From Acidobacteriota bacterium (GTDB lineage Bacteria > Acidobacteriota > Holophagae > Holophagales > Holophagaceae): a DNA stretch of 43,804 bases. A program made the translations under genes and the position numbers. Shown piece by piece: positions 7,157-16,650 of the stretch; the first letter of the stretch is position 1; each line of letters begins with the position of its first letter. Below the pieces are notes generated by a model, which had not been told where the DNA came from, made no database searches, and saw only the letters and a program-made list of their open reading frames with translations. Location: NCBI GenBank assembly GCA_021802985.1, contig JAJZQW010000011.1:5972-49775 (forward strand), given 5' to 3'.

Positions 7157-7537
7157 ATGGAGGCATTCCCTGGAGGAACCTTGGCTGCCTCAAAGACGCG
7201 TGTCGACTGGTCGCTTCTGCTCCTGCGCCTGGCGGTGGGTGGCATGGCGCTCCTGCAAGGTTTCAGCATCCTCCGTCACGCCCATGCCGCGCCCACCTTC
7301 GGCAACGCGGCGGGCCTGGGGCTCGCCCTGCTGGAGCTGATCTGCGGGGCCCTGGTGCTCATCGGCCTCTGGACCTGGCTCGTGGCTGCGGTTCTGGTGG
7401 GACTGGTGGCCTGGCCCCTGGTGCACGGGTGGATGCATGGCGCGGGGGTTCTGTCCAACCCGGCCGGCCTGTTCCGGCTGCTGACGACCCTGGCCTGCGC
7501 CCTTGGCGGCGGCGGGAAGTGGGCCGTGGATCGCTAG
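7157..7537 (+). CDS. DoxX-like small membrane protein
   Basis: Hydrophobic 4-TM pattern: [54 protein letters not shown]. Confidence 0.65.
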
Positions 7538-7546
7538 GAGAACATC

Positions 7547-8377
7547 ATGCTGCGACCCCCGATGCACGAAACGCTGTGGGCCTTCGATGCCGAGTGGGTG
7601 CCGGATCCTGCCACGGGACGGCGGGTGCTGGATCTGCCGAAGGAGATGCCTGACGACGAGGTTACGGATCGCCTGTGGGCCTATGGTGGGGCCACCGAGG
7701 CCGACCCCCGGCCCTACCTGAAGACCATCCTCTGCCGGGTGGTGTCCGTGGCCGCCGTGATCCGGACGGTGAAGCATGGCGAGGTCCACCACCGGCTCTA
7801 TGCCCTGCCGGAAGGGCCGGAGGCCCTGCCCGAAGACGAGCTGCTCCGCCGGTTCCTCGTGGCCATGGGCGACAAGAAGCCTCAGCTGGTGGGATTCAAC
7901 AGTCGCGATGCCGACCTGCCCATCCTGGTCCAGCGCGCCATGGTCCATCGGCTGTCGATCCCGGGCCTGGGGCGTAGCGCCGACAAGTGGGCCAAGGACG
8001 ACTTCTTCGATCGCTACGGCAACCAGCATGTGGACCTGCGCGAGATCACCGGCGCCTGGGGCAAGGCCTCGTCCACCCTCCACGAGCTGGCCACGGCCTG
8101 CGGCATCCCCGGCAAGCTCGGCACGGATGGCAAGAGCGTCATCGACCTCTGGCGGGCAGGGGATGTGACGGGCATCGTCCGGTATAACCAGTTCGACGCC
8201 CTGACCACCTTCCTGGTCTGGCTGCGGGCCATGACCCTCTCCGGGCACCTGAGCCCCGAGCAGATGGCCGCCGAGGAGGCCTCCATCCGGGCCCTGGTCC
8301 AGCAGAAGGCGGCTCTGGACCCTGCCTTTGGCGTTTTCCTGGAAGGCTGGGACCGCCTGGGTGGCCTCCTGACTTGA
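7547..8377 (+). CDS. Predicted 3'-5' exonuclease related to the PolB exonuclease domain (DnaQ-like fold)
   Basis: LWAFDAEWVPD, LVGFNSRDADLPILVQRAM, HVDLREITGAWG, YNQFDALTTFLVWLR: acidic exonuclease motifs. AGGAGA ribosome-binding site before 7547. Confidence 0.85.
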   Translation: MLRPPMHETLWAFDAEWVPDPATGRRVLDLPKEMPDDEVTDRLWAYGGATEADPRPYLKTILCRVVSVAAVIRTVKHGEVHHRLYALPEGPEALPEDELLRRFLVAMGDKKPQLVGFNSRDADLPILVQRAMVHRLSIPGLGRSADKWAKDDFFDRYGNQHVDLREITGAWGKASSTLHELATACGIPGKLGTDGKSVIDLWRAGDVTGIVRYNQFDALTTFLVWLRAMTLSGHLSPEQMAAEEASIRALVQQKAALDPAFGVFLEGWDRLGGLLT

Positions 8378-8422
8378 GCGAATCCTCTCTCCGGCCGATA
8401 CACTCTTGATCCAGGAGCCGCC

Positions 8423-8725
8423 ATGACCCAGGAGATCCGCCCCGAGGACCTCATCGTCACCGAGCAGGACGGCACCCGCCGCATCAATCACGACGTGATC
8501 GAGAGCTACGGCCTGTTCAACCTGCCGCGGGCCACCATGCGGCAGGCCCTGATGGTCTACTACGACAATGCCAGCCGGCAGGGCCGTGGCGCCGCCCAGA
8601 CCGTGCGGACCTTCATCACCCTGGCCAGTTCCATCACCCGTTTCCCCCGCCAGGTGGCCATCAACTTCACCCGCGGTCATGCCTACCGGCGGAACATGCG
8701 GATGCTGAGGCGCTACAGCCGCTGA
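8423..8725 (+). CDS. Conserved hypothetical protein, 100 aa
   Basis: Complete ORF in an intergenic position with ribosome-binding site (caggagccgcc ATG); no recognised domain. Confidence 0.65.
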   Translation: MTQEIRPEDLIVTEQDGTRRINHDVIESYGLFNLPRATMRQALMVYYDNASRQGRGAAQTVRTFITLASSITRFPRQVAINFTRGHAYRRNMRMLRRYSR

Positions 8726-9649: not shown

Positions 9650-12577
9650 TCAGAAGGCGAATCGGGCGCCGATCTGGATCTGACGGGCCCCACCCTGCCA
9701 AATCTGGGACTGGTCCAGCCCGGGCGCGGCGTCGGTGCTGGCCGGCGCGGCTGTATGGATGCGGGTGGCCAGGTAGGTGTCCTGGCGGTTGAAGAGGTTG
9801 AACACATCCAGGGATGCGGTCATCTTCAGGCGCCGGGTGAGCAGGAAGTCCCGACGCAGCCCGAGGTCCAGATACAACTGAGAGCCTGTGCGGTAGGTGT
9901 TGCGACCCGAGTCCTGGCCGTTGGCGAAGAACCGGTCATTGCTATAGTTGCCATCCTTGTTCATGTCCTTGTTGTAGACCAGGCTGTACGGCGTGCCGGT
10001 CTGGTAATGGATGGACAGAGAGGTCAGGATGCCGGACAGGTTCCGATCGAGGTAGCTCATGTAGCCGGTGAGCACCTGGCGGCGATCCGTGTCGGCATAG
10101 CCCCACTGTCCGCCCAGGTTCCCGGCGTCCTGGATGGTGATGCCGGAGTAGTTGCGTTCGTTGGAGTCGCTGTCCTTGTTGATGGAGTAGGTGTAGTACA
10201 TCTGGGCATCGAAGTCGCTGCCGTCCTGGTGGTACTTCATGCTGAAGGTGTAGGCGTGGTAGAGGCTGGTGGCATCGGAGAAGTACATCCCCTCCGTGGC
10301 GTAGGCCGTATTGGGCCGGGCGGGATAGAGCAGGCGGCCGTAGGCGCCCATGGTGGGCGCGCCAATGTTCAGGTCTGCGGTGCGCTCGAGCTGGTTGCCC
10401 TTGGCGTAAGTGGCAGAAAGACCCAGGACCCACCCGCCGAAGAAGGGTCGCTCGGCGCCCACATTCACCCGGTCCGTGTAGGGATTCTTGAAGTTCGGAT
10501 TGAAGGACCAGACGCTGAACTTGGGAACCTTGGAACCGGCGCCACTTGGGAAGGAGGGGAACCAGAACGGCGTCGTGGCATTGAAGGCGGAGCCGATGGG
10601 AATGCCGAAGGTGGTGGCATCGGCGGGCTTGAAGTCCACCGAACCGGTCCGGGTGCCGTTGGCGGCATAGGCCTGGTAGAGGAAGACCGCCGGAGTGGTG
10701 CTGACGTAGCGGCCGACGCTGCCGCGGACCACGGTCCGGTCCTTGTCGAAGGCAGGCGTCCAGGTGAAGGAGAAGCGCGGGGAGAACTGGCTGTCGGTGG
10801 GAATCCTGGCCGTGGTGGCGAAGGTGGTCGCATGGCCGGCGACCCCGGCCTGGGGATCCGTCATGTCCAGGATCGGGAAGTCGGGGTTCTCCTGGCGGTC
10901 CCAGCGGAGGCCCAGGCCCAGCTTCAGGGTGTCCGTCACACGCCAATCAGCCTGGAGGTAGGCGGCTTCCTGCTTCTCGGTGGCGCTGAAGAGGCCCGCC
11001 TGCTTCACCGGGCTGTTCAATCCGAAGTTCTGCCGGTAGGTCGACCAGTTGCCGGCGCGGAAATCGGCCAGGTTGTTGAACATGTAGACACCCTGCCAGT
11101 TCCCGGCGAAGAACTCAGAGACATCGACGCTGTTGTAGTCGATGCCGCCCTTCACCTGGAAGGTGGGGGTGACGTAGCTGAGGTTCTCCTGGATCTGGGT
11201 GCGCTTGGTGGTGTAGGTGCGGTCGTAGGGGTAGGCGCCGTAGTAGCCGACGCCGCTGATGCTCACCTCGGGGACGCTGGAATACGTGGACCGGGGCATG
11301 TCGTCCTTGCTGTAGCTGACCCGGGCCTCGTTCAGCCAGTTGGCGTTGAGGACCCAGTTCCACTGCACGACATAGGCATCCGTGGTCACGTCATCGGAGG
11401 CCAGGTTCTCGTGGGCAGCCATGGTGCCCGCGCCGGTGTCGCCCGAGAACTTGGAGTGGTTGATCCGGAACTGGAGGGTCTGGTCGGTGGTGAGGTTCCA
11501 GTCGACACGGGCAAACATGGTGTCGGAATCGGCCTTGCTGGAGTAGTCGCCGCCCTTGGATAGAAGGATCGCATCGGCGGGATTGGTGGGATCGAGGATG
11601 GCCGGCCGGCTGCCACCCCAGACCTGGTGAATGGGCTTCGTGTACCGTTGGCCGTCATAGGCCACGAAGTAGAAGAGCTTGTCCTTGATGATGGGGCCGC
11701 CCGCGCTGAAGCCGAACTGCTCCTGCTTGAAGTCGCCGACGGGATTGGTGGTCGTGGAACCATTGGGCTGCTGGAGGGTGGGGCCCGCCTCGACCCAGCT
11801 CCGGGGGCGCATGTAGTAGAAGAGGCTGCCGCCGAAGTCGTTGGTGCCGTTCTTGGTGATGGCGTTCACGTAGCCGCCGCCCATGCGGCCGAATTCGGCC
11901 GAGGCGCCATCGGTGACCACCTGGTACTCGCGGATGGCTTCGATGGAGATGGTGAAGGGGGTCTTGCCCTCGGCGGCCCCGAGGGCGCCCCCGAAGAAGG
12001 GTTCGTTGTTGTCGGCGCCGTCGATGTTGATGGAGGTGTTCACACCGCGCTGGCCGGCGATGGCCAGGTTGCCGCGGCTGCTGTCCACCACCACCTGGGG
12101 GGCCAAGGTGGCCAGGTTGGTGAAGGAGCGGTTCAGGACGGGCAGGTTGGTAAGGTTGTCCGGGGAGATGAAGGCGGCGGCACTGGCGCGATCGGCATCC
12201 ACCTGGGCGGTGGCGGCCACCACCTCGACGACGGCGCCGGTTTCGGGGGCCAGTCGCACGGTCAGGGGGGCGGCATCGCCCAGGTTCAGATCGACCTTCA
12301 CGTTGCTGGCGGTCTGGAAGCCGGCCTTCGTGACAGTCACCTGATAGGGGCCCACGGGGAGGGTCGTCGCCAGGTAGCGGCCGTTGGCATCGGTCTGCAC
12401 CGTGCGCAGGAAGCCGGTTTCCATGTTCCGAATGGTCACGTTGGCGCCGGGAATCGCTGCGCCCTGCCGGTCGAGTACTCGACCGGCGAGCTGGGCCGTG
12501 ACGCCCTGCGCGATGAGGGGGGCCGCTGCGACCAGCAGAGCCAGGATGGATATGCCGCGTATATGCCTAGGACGCAT
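9650..12577 (-). CDS. TonB-dependent receptor with N-terminal carboxypeptidase-regulatory-like domain (Oar-like)
   Basis: Signal peptide; AGRVLDRQGAAIPGANVTIRNMETGFLRTVQTDANGRYLATTLPVGPYQVTV; plug-domain region; long beta-barrel ending in F. Confidence 0.93.
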   Translation of the reverse strand: MRPRHIRGISILALLVAAAPLIAQGVTAQLAGRVLDRQGAAIPGANVTIRNMETGFLRTVQTDANGRYLATTLPVGPYQVTVTKAGFQTASNVKVDLNLGDAAPLTVRLAPETGAVVEVVAATAQVDADRASAAAFISPDNLTNLPVLNRSFTNLATLAPQVVVDSSRGNLAIAGQRGVNTSINIDGADNNEPFFGGALGAAEGKTPFTISIEAIREYQVVTDGASAEFGRMGGGYVNAITKNGTNDFGGSLFYYMRPRSWVEAGPTLQQPNGSTTTNPVGDFKQEQFGFSAGGPIIKDKLFYFVAYDGQRYTKPIHQVWGGSRPAILDPTNPADAILLSKGGDYSSKADSDTMFARVDWNLTTDQTLQFRINHSKFSGDTGAGTMAAHENLASDDVTTDAYVVQWNWVLNANWLNEARVSYSKDDMPRSTYSSVPEVSISGVGYYGAYPYDRTYTTKRTQIQENLSYVTPTFQVKGGIDYNSVDVSEFFAGNWQGVYMFNNLADFRAGNWSTYRQNFGLNSPVKQAGLFSATEKQEAAYLQADWRVTDTLKLGLGLRWDRQENPDFPILDMTDPQAGVAGHATTFATTARIPTDSQFSPRFSFTWTPAFDKDRTVVRGSVGRYVSTTPAVFLYQAYAANGTRTGSVDFKPADATTFGIPIGSAFNATTPFWFPSFPSGAGSKVPKFSVWSFNPNFKNPYTDRVNVGAERPFFGGWVLGLSATYAKGNQLERTADLNIGAPTMGAYGRLLYPARPNTAYATEGMYFSDATSLYHAYTFSMKYHQDGSDFDAQMYYTYSINKDSDSNERNYSGITIQDAGNLGGQWGYADTDRRQVLTGYMSYLDRNLSGILTSLSIHYQTGTPYSLVYNKDMNKDGNYSNDRFFANGQDSGRNTYRTGSQLYLDLGLRRDFLLTRRLKMTASLDVFNLFNRQDTYLATRIHTAAPASTDAAPGLDQSQIWQGGARQIQIGARFAF

Positions 12578-12754: not shown

Positions 12755-14494
12755 ATGAAACTGGCCACCCTCGCCCTGGCACTCTTCCTCCCTCTCGCCG
12801 CCCAGGCTCCGGCCACCATGCCCCTTTCCGAGATCCGGGCCGGGATGAAGGGCTACGGGAAGACCGTCTTCCAGGGGGGCAAGATCGATCGGTTCGAGTT
12901 CGAGGTGGTCGGGGTTCAGCGGAACGCCTATCCGGGTCGGGGCCGGATCATGGTGAAGGCCAGCGGCGGCCCCCTGGCCCAGACCGGGATCCTGGCTGGC
13001 ATGAGCGGCAGCCCTTGTTATATCAACGGCAAGCTGATCGGGGCCCTCAGCACCGGCATCCAGTTCGAGAAGGACGCCATCGGGGGCGTCACGCCCATTG
13101 GCGAAATGCTGGACCAGCTGCGGGACATCCCGGACACCCCCCCCAGCCACACACCGCTCATCCTGCCGAAACTGGCGCCTCCCCAGGTTCTCAAGTCCGC
13201 CCTGATGGGAAAGATGATTCCCCTGGATGTCCTGATGGGCGGGTCGGAGGCCGAGGCCCTCCCCATGGCCGTGGCGGGCACGCCGCTGACCCCCGAGACC
13301 CAGAAGCTGTGGGAGGGGCTGCCCATCCGGTTTGTGGCGGGGCCCGCCCTGTCTCCTACCGTCGGCGGGGAGGAGGCCAGCCCCCTGGAACCCGGTGGCA
13401 TGGCGGCCATCTCCCTCATGCAGGGGGACCTGGACATGACAGCGGCGGGGACGATTACCTACGTCTCCGGGAAACGGGTGCTCCTCTTCGGCCACCAGCT
13501 ATTCAATCTGGGCGCCGTGGATCTGCCCCTGTGGTCGGCCACCGTGGCCACCGTGGTGCCGAGCTACTCCAGTTCCTTCAAGATGGCCATGCCCGTGGCC
13601 CAGGTAGGTGCCCTCCGGCTGGACCGCAGCTCCGGCGTGGCGGGCCTCCTGGGCGCCGTGCCCCACATGGTGCCCCTGCGCGTGGGGCTGAACCTGGGCG
13701 GGCGGAAGACCCTGAACTTCCGGTTCGAGATCATGGACAACCCGATCCTCACCCCCGTGCTGGCCGCCACCGCCGTGACCCAGGTGCTCGACAGCAACAT
13801 CCGGGGCGCGGGGTTCCAGAGCCTCTCCCTGCAGGGCAACATCAAGCTGGCCGGCCAGTCGCCCATCCAGGTGGAGAACGTCATCGCGGACTTGAACGCC
13901 AGCCGCATGGCCCAGTACGTCGGGGGCATGCTCCAGGCCGTGACCCTCAACCCCTTCGAGAAGCCGGTCATCGAAGGGATCTCCCTGAACATCAAGGCGG
14001 AGGAGCGCCTGGAACTCGCGGGCATCGCGGGGATCCGGCTGCTCAAGGCCCGGGCCAAGCGCGGGGAAGTGCTCCCCGTCCTGGTGACCCTGCAGAACAT
14101 CCAGGGGGTCCGGGAGACGGCCACCTTCAACATCCAGGTGCCCCCCTCCGCGGCCAAAGGCAAGGCCATCCTCATGGTGGGTGATGGCCTTAGCCTCATG
14201 GCCGCAGATCCCGACCAGCGGGCCATCGAGGTGGCCAGCCTGAGTGACGTGGTGCACCTCCTCAATGGCGCCATGCGGAACAACCATGCCTATGCCCTCC
14301 TGGTGCAGACCCAGCCCGGCGCGGGGTTGCGGGGCAGCCGCATCGAGGGCATTCCGCCCACCATCGCGACGCTGGTGAGTGGCGATGGCGCCAGCAGCGA
14401 TAACCGGCTGCAGCGGCGCATCATCGGACGGGCCGTGCTGCCCCTGGACCGCGAAGTCCGGGGCCTCAGCCAGATGGAAGTCGAAATCGAGTAG
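12755..14494 (+). CDS. Secreted SpoIVB-type peptidase S55 domain protein
   Basis: Signal peptide MKLATLALALFLPLAAQA; ILAGMSGSPCYINGKLIGALSTG (S55 Ser motif); AAGTITYVSGKRVLLFGHQLFNLG (S55 His motif). Confidence 0.85.
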   Translation: MKLATLALALFLPLAAQAPATMPLSEIRAGMKGYGKTVFQGGKIDRFEFEVVGVQRNAYPGRGRIMVKASGGPLAQTGILAGMSGSPCYINGKLIGALSTGIQFEKDAIGGVTPIGEMLDQLRDIPDTPPSHTPLILPKLAPPQVLKSALMGKMIPLDVLMGGSEAEALPMAVAGTPLTPETQKLWEGLPIRFVAGPALSPTVGGEEASPLEPGGMAAISLMQGDLDMTAAGTITYVSGKRVLLFGHQLFNLGAVDLPLWSATVATVVPSYSSSFKMAMPVAQVGALRLDRSSGVAGLLGAVPHMVPLRVGLNLGGRKTLNFRFEIMDNPILTPVLAATAVTQVLDSNIRGAGFQSLSLQGNIKLAGQSPIQVENVIADLNASRMAQYVGGMLQAVTLNPFEKPVIEGISLNIKAEERLELAGIAGIRLLKARAKRGEVLPVLVTLQNIQGVRETATFNIQVPPSAAKGKAILMVGDGLSLMAADPDQRAIEVASLSDVVHLLNGAMRNNHAYALLVQTQPGAGLRGSRIEGIPPTIATLVSGDGASSDNRLQRRIIGRAVLPLDREVRGLSQMEVEIE

Positions 14495-14550
14495 GCGGTC
14501 GTCCCGACCTGTTGGCAGTTGACCTTGCTGGGCATTCACGAAAGGGAACC

Positions 14551-16650
14551 ATGCGCTGGATGAAGCTCCTTCTCCCCGCGGTCCTGGGCATGACGCTGGC
14601 CGCGGATCAGCCCACTGCCACCTTCTCCTCCTTCAATGACTGGCTGGGCGCCGAGACCCGGGGCGTCCGCATCGGCGCAGACGGGACGCTGCGTCTCGCC
14701 CCCAGCCTGCGCCGGGTGGCGCAGATTCCCGAGGGGGTCATCTGGGCCGCGGTCCCTGACGGGGCCGGGGGCGCCTACCTGTCGGCGGGGACCGAAGGGA
14801 AGCTCTTCCACTACACCGGTGGCCAGGTCCGCCCAGTGGGCCAGGTCAAGGGCGGCATCGTGTTCGCGATGGCCCGGCTGGGGCAGGATCTCATCGTGGC
14901 GCCCACCGGCGAAGGGAAGCTGCTGCGCGTGGCCCCGAACGGTGATGTGAAGCCCTTCGCCGACATCGAGGCCAAGGTGGTTTGGGCCCTGGCGGTGGAT
15001 GGGGACAACGTGCTGGCCGCCGGCGGTGCCGAGCGCGGCGCGGTGCTGGTCCAGGCCCGGGCGGGATCGAGCCGGCTCCTGGCCAGCCTGCCGGACGAGA
15101 CGGCCTTCACGGCCCTGGTCGCGGACGGGCAGGGCGGCTGGTATCTGGGCAGCCATGGCCGCGGCCTGGTGCTGCGGTACAACCGCCAGGGGGACCACCT
15201 CGAGACCCTGATGGATACGCCCTTCGAAGAGGTGCGGGCCCTGGCGGTGGCGGATGGGCAGCTCTTCATCGGGGCCGACAACGGCCTCACGCCGAAGTTC
15301 AGCACCGGTCAGTTGGAGCGCCGGGAGGGCTACCTCCAGGCCTCGGAGCTGGGCACCGCCACCCGCTCCGCCGTGATCCGGATGGACCGGGACCGGGTTC
15401 CCGAGACGCTCTGGCAGAGTGCCCAGAGCCAGGTCTACGCCTTGACGGTCTGGAAGGGGCAGCTGCTGGTGGGAACGGGCAACCGTTCGCGGATCTTCGG
15501 GATCCCCCTCGGGGCGGACCGGCGGACCGATCCCTTCGCCTCGCTGCAGGAACTGGGCACGGCCCAGGCGACGGCTTTCCTGCCCTCGGGCGGGGATCTG
15601 CTGGTGGTGGGCTCCAACCCCGCCGAGTTGCACCTGCTGTCGGAGGCCCAGGCCACCGAGGGCACGCTGGAATCCCGCATCATCAAGGCCGCGCCCCTGG
15701 CCGACTGGGGCCGGGCCTACCTGACGGCCGAAACGCCGCAGGGCACCAAGGTCGAGCTTCAGTTCCGCACGGGCAGCACCGAGACGCCCGATGCCACCTG
15801 GAGCCCCTGGACGCCGCCGCTCCTCAGCGGGGAGCGGCCGGCCCTGCCACCCTCCCGGTTCGCCCAGTTCCGCCTGCGGCTGTCCAGCACCCGGGGAGGC
15901 GCCACGCCCCTGGTGGAAGGGGTCACCCTGCACTGGGCCCCGCGCAACCTGGCCCCGGTGTGGGAGGGCGTGGACATCATGCCGCCCGGGCTGATCATCA
16001 CCCGGAATGCGCCGCCGGAGGATATCGGCATCGAGCGCGTGCCCCTGGAGACACAGAAGCTCATCCCGGCCCTGGGCTATGCCGGTGCCGAAAAGCGGAG
16101 CTTCCGGCGGGGCGGCCAAAGCTTCGTGTTCCGCGTCAACGACCCCAATGGGGACACCCTGGCCTTCGACCTCCGGCTGATCCCCGACCATGGCGCTCCG
16201 CTGCCGCTGGAGAAGGGCTGGAAGGAGAAGTTCTTCAGCTTCGATACCCTGCCCGTGCCCGATGGCAGCTACCGGCTGGAGATCACCGCCACTGATGCGC
16301 CCACGGAGCCCTTCAATACCGCACTCACCAGCCTCTGGCTCACGCCGCCCTTCATCATCGACCACACCCCCCCGGCCATCTCCGAACTCTCTGCCACATC
16401 CGAGGGGGGCGGCGTGCGGATCCGCTTCACTGGAAAGGACGAGACCTCGATCCTGAAGGAGGCCGCGGTCAGCGCGGATGGCGAACACTGGCTACAGATC
16501 GTCCCCGATGACCGGGTGTTCGACCAGCAGCAGGAGCGCTTCGACGTCCTGGTGCCGCGGGACCTGGTGCGGGGCGACCGGATCCTGGTGAAGGTGGTGG
16601 ACCAGAACAACAACGAACAGACCGCCGCCGTCACGGTTGGAGCCAAGTGA
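14551..16650 (+). CDS. Secreted protein with propeller-like N-terminal region and Ig/FN3-like C-terminal region, function unknown
   Basis: Signal peptide MRWMKLLLPAVLGMTLAA; repeated G..Y/L.G...G.L.R blades; C-terminal VFRVNDPNGDTLAFDLRL...IDHTPPAISELSAT. Start 14551 preferred over 14512. Confidence 0.75.
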   Translation: MRWMKLLLPAVLGMTLAADQPTATFSSFNDWLGAETRGVRIGADGTLRLAPSLRRVAQIPEGVIWAAVPDGAGGAYLSAGTEGKLFHYTGGQVRPVGQVKGGIVFAMARLGQDLIVAPTGEGKLLRVAPNGDVKPFADIEAKVVWALAVDGDNVLAAGGAERGAVLVQARAGSSRLLASLPDETAFTALVADGQGGWYLGSHGRGLVLRYNRQGDHLETLMDTPFEEVRALAVADGQLFIGADNGLTPKFSTGQLERREGYLQASELGTATRSAVIRMDRDRVPETLWQSAQSQVYALTVWKGQLLVGTGNRSRIFGIPLGADRRTDPFASLQELGTAQATAFLPSGGDLLVVGSNPAELHLLSEAQATEGTLESRIIKAAPLADWGRAYLTAETPQGTKVELQFRTGSTETPDATWSPWTPPLLSGERPALPPSRFAQFRLRLSSTRGGATPLVEGVTLHWAPRNLAPVWEGVDIMPPGLIITRNAPPEDIGIERVPLETQKLIPALGYAGAEKRSFRRGGQSFVFRVNDPNGDTLAFDLRLIPDHGAPLPLEKGWKEKFFSFDTLPVPDGSYRLEITATDAPTEPFNTALTSLWLTPPFIIDHTPPAISELSATSEGGGVRIRFTGKDETSILKEAAVSADGEHWLQIVPDDRVFDQQQERFDVLVPRDLVRGDRILVKVVDQNNNEQTAAVTVGAK

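Follow-up and report, generated by a model that had tools for sequence, protein, structure and literature searches.

An S55-type serine protease family with apparently swapped barrels and a probable place at the outer membrane

What is a protein with the serine motif of SpoIVB doing in an acidobacterial genome, and why does its histidine motif follow the serine motif instead of preceding it? The question is raised by a single open frame of 579 aa (12755..14494, + strand) in the 43,804-nucleotide stretch of DNA analysed here (the window). Judging from the frame and its homologues, it encodes a permuted S55-type serine protease. A preliminary description of the sequence had placed GMSGSP (Ser84) ahead of the His motif (His247), and both are where it put them: AGMSGSPCYINGKLIGA occupies residues 81-97, with GMSGSP at residues 82-87 (12998..13015, +), and GTITYVSGKRVLLFGHQLFNLG starts at residue 232 and contains His247, so that the GTITY...FGH block spans residues 232-247. 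A second canonical His motif upstream of GMSGSP, which that description had named as telling against a swap, is excluded, because the residues ahead of Ser84 are without any His (a scan of the sequence found none before residue 132). Domain libraries recognise only the Ser half. Pfam PF05580 matches residues 36-99 at profile positions 126-191 of 210, scoring 26.5 bits (cut-off 25). TIGR02860 matches residues 37-110 at positions 313-387 of 402 only, and its 27 bits lie below the equivalog cut-off of 305 bits. A signal-peptide-like stretch, read off the sequence by eye, covers residues 1 to about 18 and agrees with the earlier view that the protein is secreted. The source assembly (Acidobacteriota, 2.3 Mb, 72% complete) holds one such gene.

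A one-genome oddity, frameshift or assembly error can be dismissed, because the order is constant: the Ser motif lies ahead of the His motif in 147 of 147 aligned relatives, which is the motif order across phyla that the preliminary description had proposed looking for. Homologues occur in 281 of 297 Acidobacteriota genomes, making the protease near-universal there, in single copy, with close relatives in records named Holophagaceae. Some nearly complete Acidobacteriota genomes have no match (e.g., G049, G217, G249, G130 and G273 (family f10)) and may represent losses. Relatives outside Acidobacteriota fall into more than a dozen groups, named here from record titles. When one genome per species was scanned, 80 loci came to light, in Acidobacteriota and in records carrying the labels Aminicenantes, Latescibacterota, Planctomycetota, Gemmatimonadota, Poribacteria, KSB1, Myxococcales, Hebobacteria, Armatimonadetes, WOR-3, Eisenbacteria, Wallbacteria and Bacillota/Firmicutes.

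Gly82, Ser84, Gly85, Pro87, Gly246, His247, Gly285 and Asp290 are invariant in the 147 aligned sequences, and Asp225 is nearly so. The distance from His to Asp is 43-44 residues in all of them, and that from Ser to His varies from 135 to 277. PF05580 is matched at E<=1 by all 79 members of alignment A2. In Acidobacteriota, the G307 group and the G309 group (119, 78 and 64 genomes in the three), every PF05580 match begins at profile position 94 or later, and thus only the swapped form is seen in these groups. In a tree of the Ser half, a single branch with full support divides the 147 swapped sequences from 25 canonical ones; the columns are few, and no other split of the tree is relied on. At two loci (L184 and L185, in G302 and G304), a second, diverged swapped paralogue lies beside the ordinary copy, and further matches to it occur in the G309 group. 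This paralogue is about 660-780 aa long, matches PF05580 at 156-205 only, and has a lipoprotein-like start with Cys and low-complexity tails.

The distribution of the family offers a clue to its function. Among 150 genomes of one phylum (that of G298, a Firmicutes-labelled record), Omp85 was found in 37 and the swapped His half in 37, with both in 35 and neither in 111; only Omp85 occurs in G352 and G394, and only the swapped protease in G422 and G457. The association has a Fisher P of 2e-29, with genomes of a single phylum counted as independent. Canonical SpoIVB is present in about 30 of the 37 genomes that have the swapped form (about 30 of the 150 thus hold both) and occurs alone in most of the others (hand count). 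The canonical and swapped forms are inherited separately in this sample.

In all 12 Firmicutes-labelled loci chosen for having both genes on one contig, BamA/Omp85 lies downstream of the protease on the same strand, and TamB, OmpH, LpxD, NAGPA, FlgH, FlgI and FlgA (flagellar P/L-ring) and MreB are among the neighbours. These are the genes of the conserved envelope locus described in Halanaerobiales and Negativicutes (PMC5007114). Vpar_0521 of Veillonella parvula, a protein of unknown function with an N-terminal SpoIVB domain according to its authors, is conserved in diderm Firmicutes and was listed among outer-membrane proteins (PMC5491611). Its authors reported no swapped order, His half or links to other phyla; we consider it a likely relative of the swapped family, its swapped order being assumed from its relatives. 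Vpar_0519, near Vpar_0521, is annotated as DUF2233, which we take to be the NAGPA-type gene found beside the permuted gene.

Given that, in the spore-forming phylum examined, the swapped form and the outer membrane occur in almost exactly the same genomes, it is probably an overlooked outer-membrane protease. The gene cluster and the co-occurrence with Omp85 both strengthen what had been a guess at an envelope role. An outer membrane does not in general require the protease, since E. coli, Caulobacter and Bacteroides have no PF05580 match; the match is absent from other didermal controls as well. None of the outer-membrane cluster genes was detected beside the protease in non-Firmicutes loci with models built from the Firmicutes loci, and the neighbours in the window include no outer-membrane assembly cluster. 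They do include an enoyl-CoA hydratase and, about 177 bases from the start of the protease, a divergent gene for a TonB-type outer-membrane barrel protein with a carboxypeptidase regulatory-like domain (9650-12577, -). A 496-aa frame at 7190-8680 (-) has no Pfam match at E<=1e-5.

These window neighbours, together with the inheritance of the Firmicutes cluster as a block, would suit a general secreted or surface protease that serves nutrition or predation, in which case the correlation with Omp85 would reflect one large ancestral cluster that was inherited. We regard this as possible but doubtful: unlike nutritional proteases, this one is near-universal and single copy in Acidobacteriota, its presence follows Omp85 genome by genome, and its likely relative Vpar_0521 was listed among outer-membrane proteins (PMC5491611).

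The conserved downstream neighbour of the protease (14551..16650, +) encodes a secreted beta-propeller protein whose C-terminal part is Ig-like. Its listed frame starts with TTG at 14512, and the ATG at 14551 opens a signal-peptide-like stretch; its relatives have recognisable propeller repeats and Ig-like domains. Of 70 Acidobacteriota loci, 67 have a relative of this gene next to the protease, and a strong match occurs in 69 of the 80 loci of the one-genome-per-species scan; the two genes mostly share a strand, with a short gap or none between them. The propeller gene is absent from both Firmicutes loci of that scan. In a Hebobacteria record the protease and the propeller are fused into one frame of 1344 aa (L126:16-4047, +). 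The same holds for an Armatimonadetes record (L140), but there the frame is still open where the locus ends, and it contains an ambiguous residue. Two frames opposite the protease and propeller genes, at 13499-14539 (-, 346 aa) and 14536-16488 (-, 650 aa), are probably shadow frames of high-GC coding DNA.

How the protein is built can be approached from its predicted structure. An AlphaFold2 model made with 79 sequences has a pLDDT of 89.6 and a pTM of 0.90. The first barrel (residues 22-123; 12818..13123, +) comprises elements at 32-38, 44-59, 62-70, Ser84, 87-90, 93-101 and 108-114 and ends in a helix at 115-123. It corresponds to the C-terminal half of the S55 domain of SpoIVB, as assigned from PF05580 positions 126-191, the 9LNF chain, profile comparison and the predicted strands. 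A linker or insert follows (residues 124-208; 13124..13378, +). It showed no similarity to the PDZ domain of SpoIVB when this was looked for, and the idea that residues 129-207 are a relocated PDZ domain was dropped. The second barrel (residues 214-313; 13394..13693, +), which would correspond to the N-terminal half of the S55 domain, has a pLDDT of 94.6 when folded alone. Its elements lie at 216-224, 228-238, 241-244, His247, 253-268, 275-291 (including Asp290) and 294-299, with His247 after strand 3 and Asp290 ending strand 5, ahead of strand 6. We take this strand pattern to be that of a chymotrypsin C-barrel with its C-terminal helix, followed by an N-barrel. Residues 331-579 (13745..14491, +) form a conserved region of mixed predicted strands and helices, for which no Pfam family common to the members was found.

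A Foldseek search of the PDB with the model finds SpoIVB (9LNF) with a probability of 1.00 and an rmsd of 2.9 over 108 columns of the Ser barrel. Rv3671c, trypsin and HtrA-type proteases are also matched. The good matches span about one barrel, which is to be expected if the barrel order differs. We compared each half of the family by profile with a canonical SpoIVB set, an alignment of 25 sequences from the Firmicutes-labelled phylum. The Ser halves match at a hhalign E of 1.5e-22, and mismatched pairings give E of at least 0.03. Between the His halves, E is 3.3e-4 across 77 columns, in which the GTxT...GH blocks fall on each other; a wider set gives E=1.4e-3 across 21 columns. In 150 column shuffles of the His-half pair the mean score was 12.4 against 24-27 observed, and one shuffle reached 27.6.

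Searches with the two His-half HMMs succeed in both directions. The canonical one finds a swapped Firmicutes sequence (L198) at residues 206-273, behind the Ser motif of that sequence (E=8e-6 in a small set and 7e-4 among 12,572 frames). The swapped one finds a canonical sequence (L164) in front of its Ser motif, at residues 168-266 (E=0.065 among 12,572 frames). Each outscores all decoys and is the sole member of its set to do so. The catalytic His falls on the catalytic His in all best stretches that cover the motif (63 and 22 cases; a PDZ control gave 0). Both families continue after the His with G-x4-[N/D]-x3-G-x2-G, in which the last two Gly are not strictly kept in the swapped family; an Asp precedes strand 6. 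From these alignments, we judge the kinship with SpoIVB to be strong for the Ser half and moderate for the His half, and a swap cut at the inter-barrel linker fits the matches of both. The S55 kinship and the exchange of halves claimed in the preliminary description are supported by these matches, and the predicted strand order fits the exchange.

It could be argued that only the Ser half comes from S55, and that domain shuffling brought in an unrelated barrel as the His region, with a convergent His or another task altogether. Pfam and NCBIfam recognise the Ser half alone in the window protease. A fold search of the PDB with the His barrel alone gives no convincing chymotrypsin or SpoIVB match (the best chymotrypsin-like one is 6SF7, at E 0.59 and a probability of 0.75), and a search of PDB sequences with the His-half profile (A3) returns nothing meaningful and misses 9LNF. 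Against this stand the reciprocal HMM matches at the correct reversed positions, the in-register GTxT...GH block, the shared spacing behind the His and the strand order with Asp ahead of strand 6, and we consider such an origin improbable.

We favour an S55-derived origin of both barrels and, within them, a predicted triad. Ser84 (codon 13004-13006, +) is the expected nucleophile; His247 (13493..13495, +), which aligns with the catalytic His of canonical SpoIVB, is the expected general base; and Asp290 (13622..13624, +), at a fixed spacing from His247, is proposed as the triad acid. Like the other two, it is present in every one of the 147 sequences. A fold of S55 descent that has ceased to cut substrates, whether as a scaffold or as a chaperone-like or self-processing surface protein with motifs of structural value, seems very improbable: SpoIVB has been described as zymogen-like in solution (PMC6581720) and Gly-rich motifs may be structural, but structure alone hardly demands that Ser84, His247 and Asp290 all be invariant across many phyla.

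The Asp at residue 290 of the window protease aligns with an invariant Asn of SpoIVB, which is also residue 290 in B. subtilis numbering (taken from the 9LNF chain with an offset of 96, from His236 and residue 378, counted by hand); the position is Asn in 25 of 25 canonical and Asp in 147 of 147 swapped sequences. The crystal structure of SpoIVB left its third catalytic residue open, with Asp363 lying 24 A away and Thr393 proposed (PMC12502668). Equivalents of either residue in the swapped family can be ruled out as its third catalytic residue, as they are not conserved: Ala, Ser or Gly stands in place of Thr393, and no acid is conserved in place of Asp363. Because these two positions are not kept and the one at 290 is an invariant Asp in the swapped family, the alignment makes Asn290 a candidate for the missing third residue of SpoIVB itself. 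Chain A of 9LNF reads GMAGAP, with Ala at both 378 and 380; the paper mentions S378A only. The phylum-wide order, the partner gene and Asp290 as a candidate third residue had escaped the preliminary description.

Taken together, the observations make it rather likely that the gene encodes a secreted, clan-PA-like protease of S55 ancestry with swapped barrels, the nucleophile barrel first and the His and Asp barrel second, which uses a Ser84-His247-Asp290 triad and works in the periplasm or at the outer membrane. If a single gene duplication was followed by the loss of both outer halves, the N-terminal barrel would come to lie behind the C-terminal one, with the cut falling in the old inter-barrel linker. 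The new linker of about 85 residues would then join the old C-terminal helix to the start of the old His barrel, at the place that the PDZ domain takes up in SpoIVB. In catalysis, Ser84 would attack, with His247 as the base and Asp290 orienting it. Secretion is suggested by the signal-peptide-like start. The co-encoded propeller protein could be a partner in most phyla, either as a regulator or as a substrate receptor, and the protease may serve outer-membrane assembly, quality control or remodelling.

From the perspective of protein evolution, it is worth considering which form came first. In clan PA the His precedes the Ser and the third residue is an Asp. Thus the swapped order is most simply derived, and so is the Asn of SpoIVB. 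If the Asn/Asp alignment is right, the two forms would be sisters and neither the parent of the other. More tentatively, the swapped protease could be an old component of the didermal envelope, a sister of SpoIVB that split off before the present forms arose. The swapped line would have lost the barrel order and retained the catalytic Asp; SpoIVB would have retained the order, changed Asp to Asn290 and moved between the two forespore membranes. Such a history, if true, would link outer membranes directly to endospores.

In the literature searched, no naturally permuted protease of the chymotrypsin type came up, which is no proof of absence, and a search for permuted S55 returned nothing relevant. 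With clan PA (chymotrypsin, HtrA, Rv3671c) the swapped protease shares the predicted barrel topology and the fold matches of its Ser half, whereas the barrel order is opposite. The His-Asp spacing of 43 in the window protease is similar to the 45 residues of chymotrypsin. Fold evolution would offer few parallels to a natural barrel swap in a chymotrypsin-type protease that has been kept across many phyla; the family stayed hidden because domain libraries see only half of the protein.

With SpoIVB (MEROPS S55; PF05580, TIGR02860; 9LNF) the family has in common the Ser half, GMSGSP, GTxT...GH and secretion. It differs in having its halves reversed, no recognisable PDZ domain ahead of the protease unit, an extra linker and a C-terminal region of about 250 residues, and an invariant Asp in place of Asn290. 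Most phyla that carry the swapped form are not endospore formers, and the family is present without sporulation, following the outer membrane and not the endospore; a role other than pro-sigmaK signalling, as suspected at the outset, is supported. By tracking Omp85 almost perfectly, and apart from SpoIVB, in one Firmicutes-labelled phylum, it points to an uncharacterised outer-membrane protease in bacteria where little envelope proteolysis is known. Given that it has neither the co-linear His-before-Ser order over the S55 profile nor the PDZ domain, and scores far below the equivalog cut-off, the protease should not be filed as SpoIVB; the comparison supports a new variant of S55.
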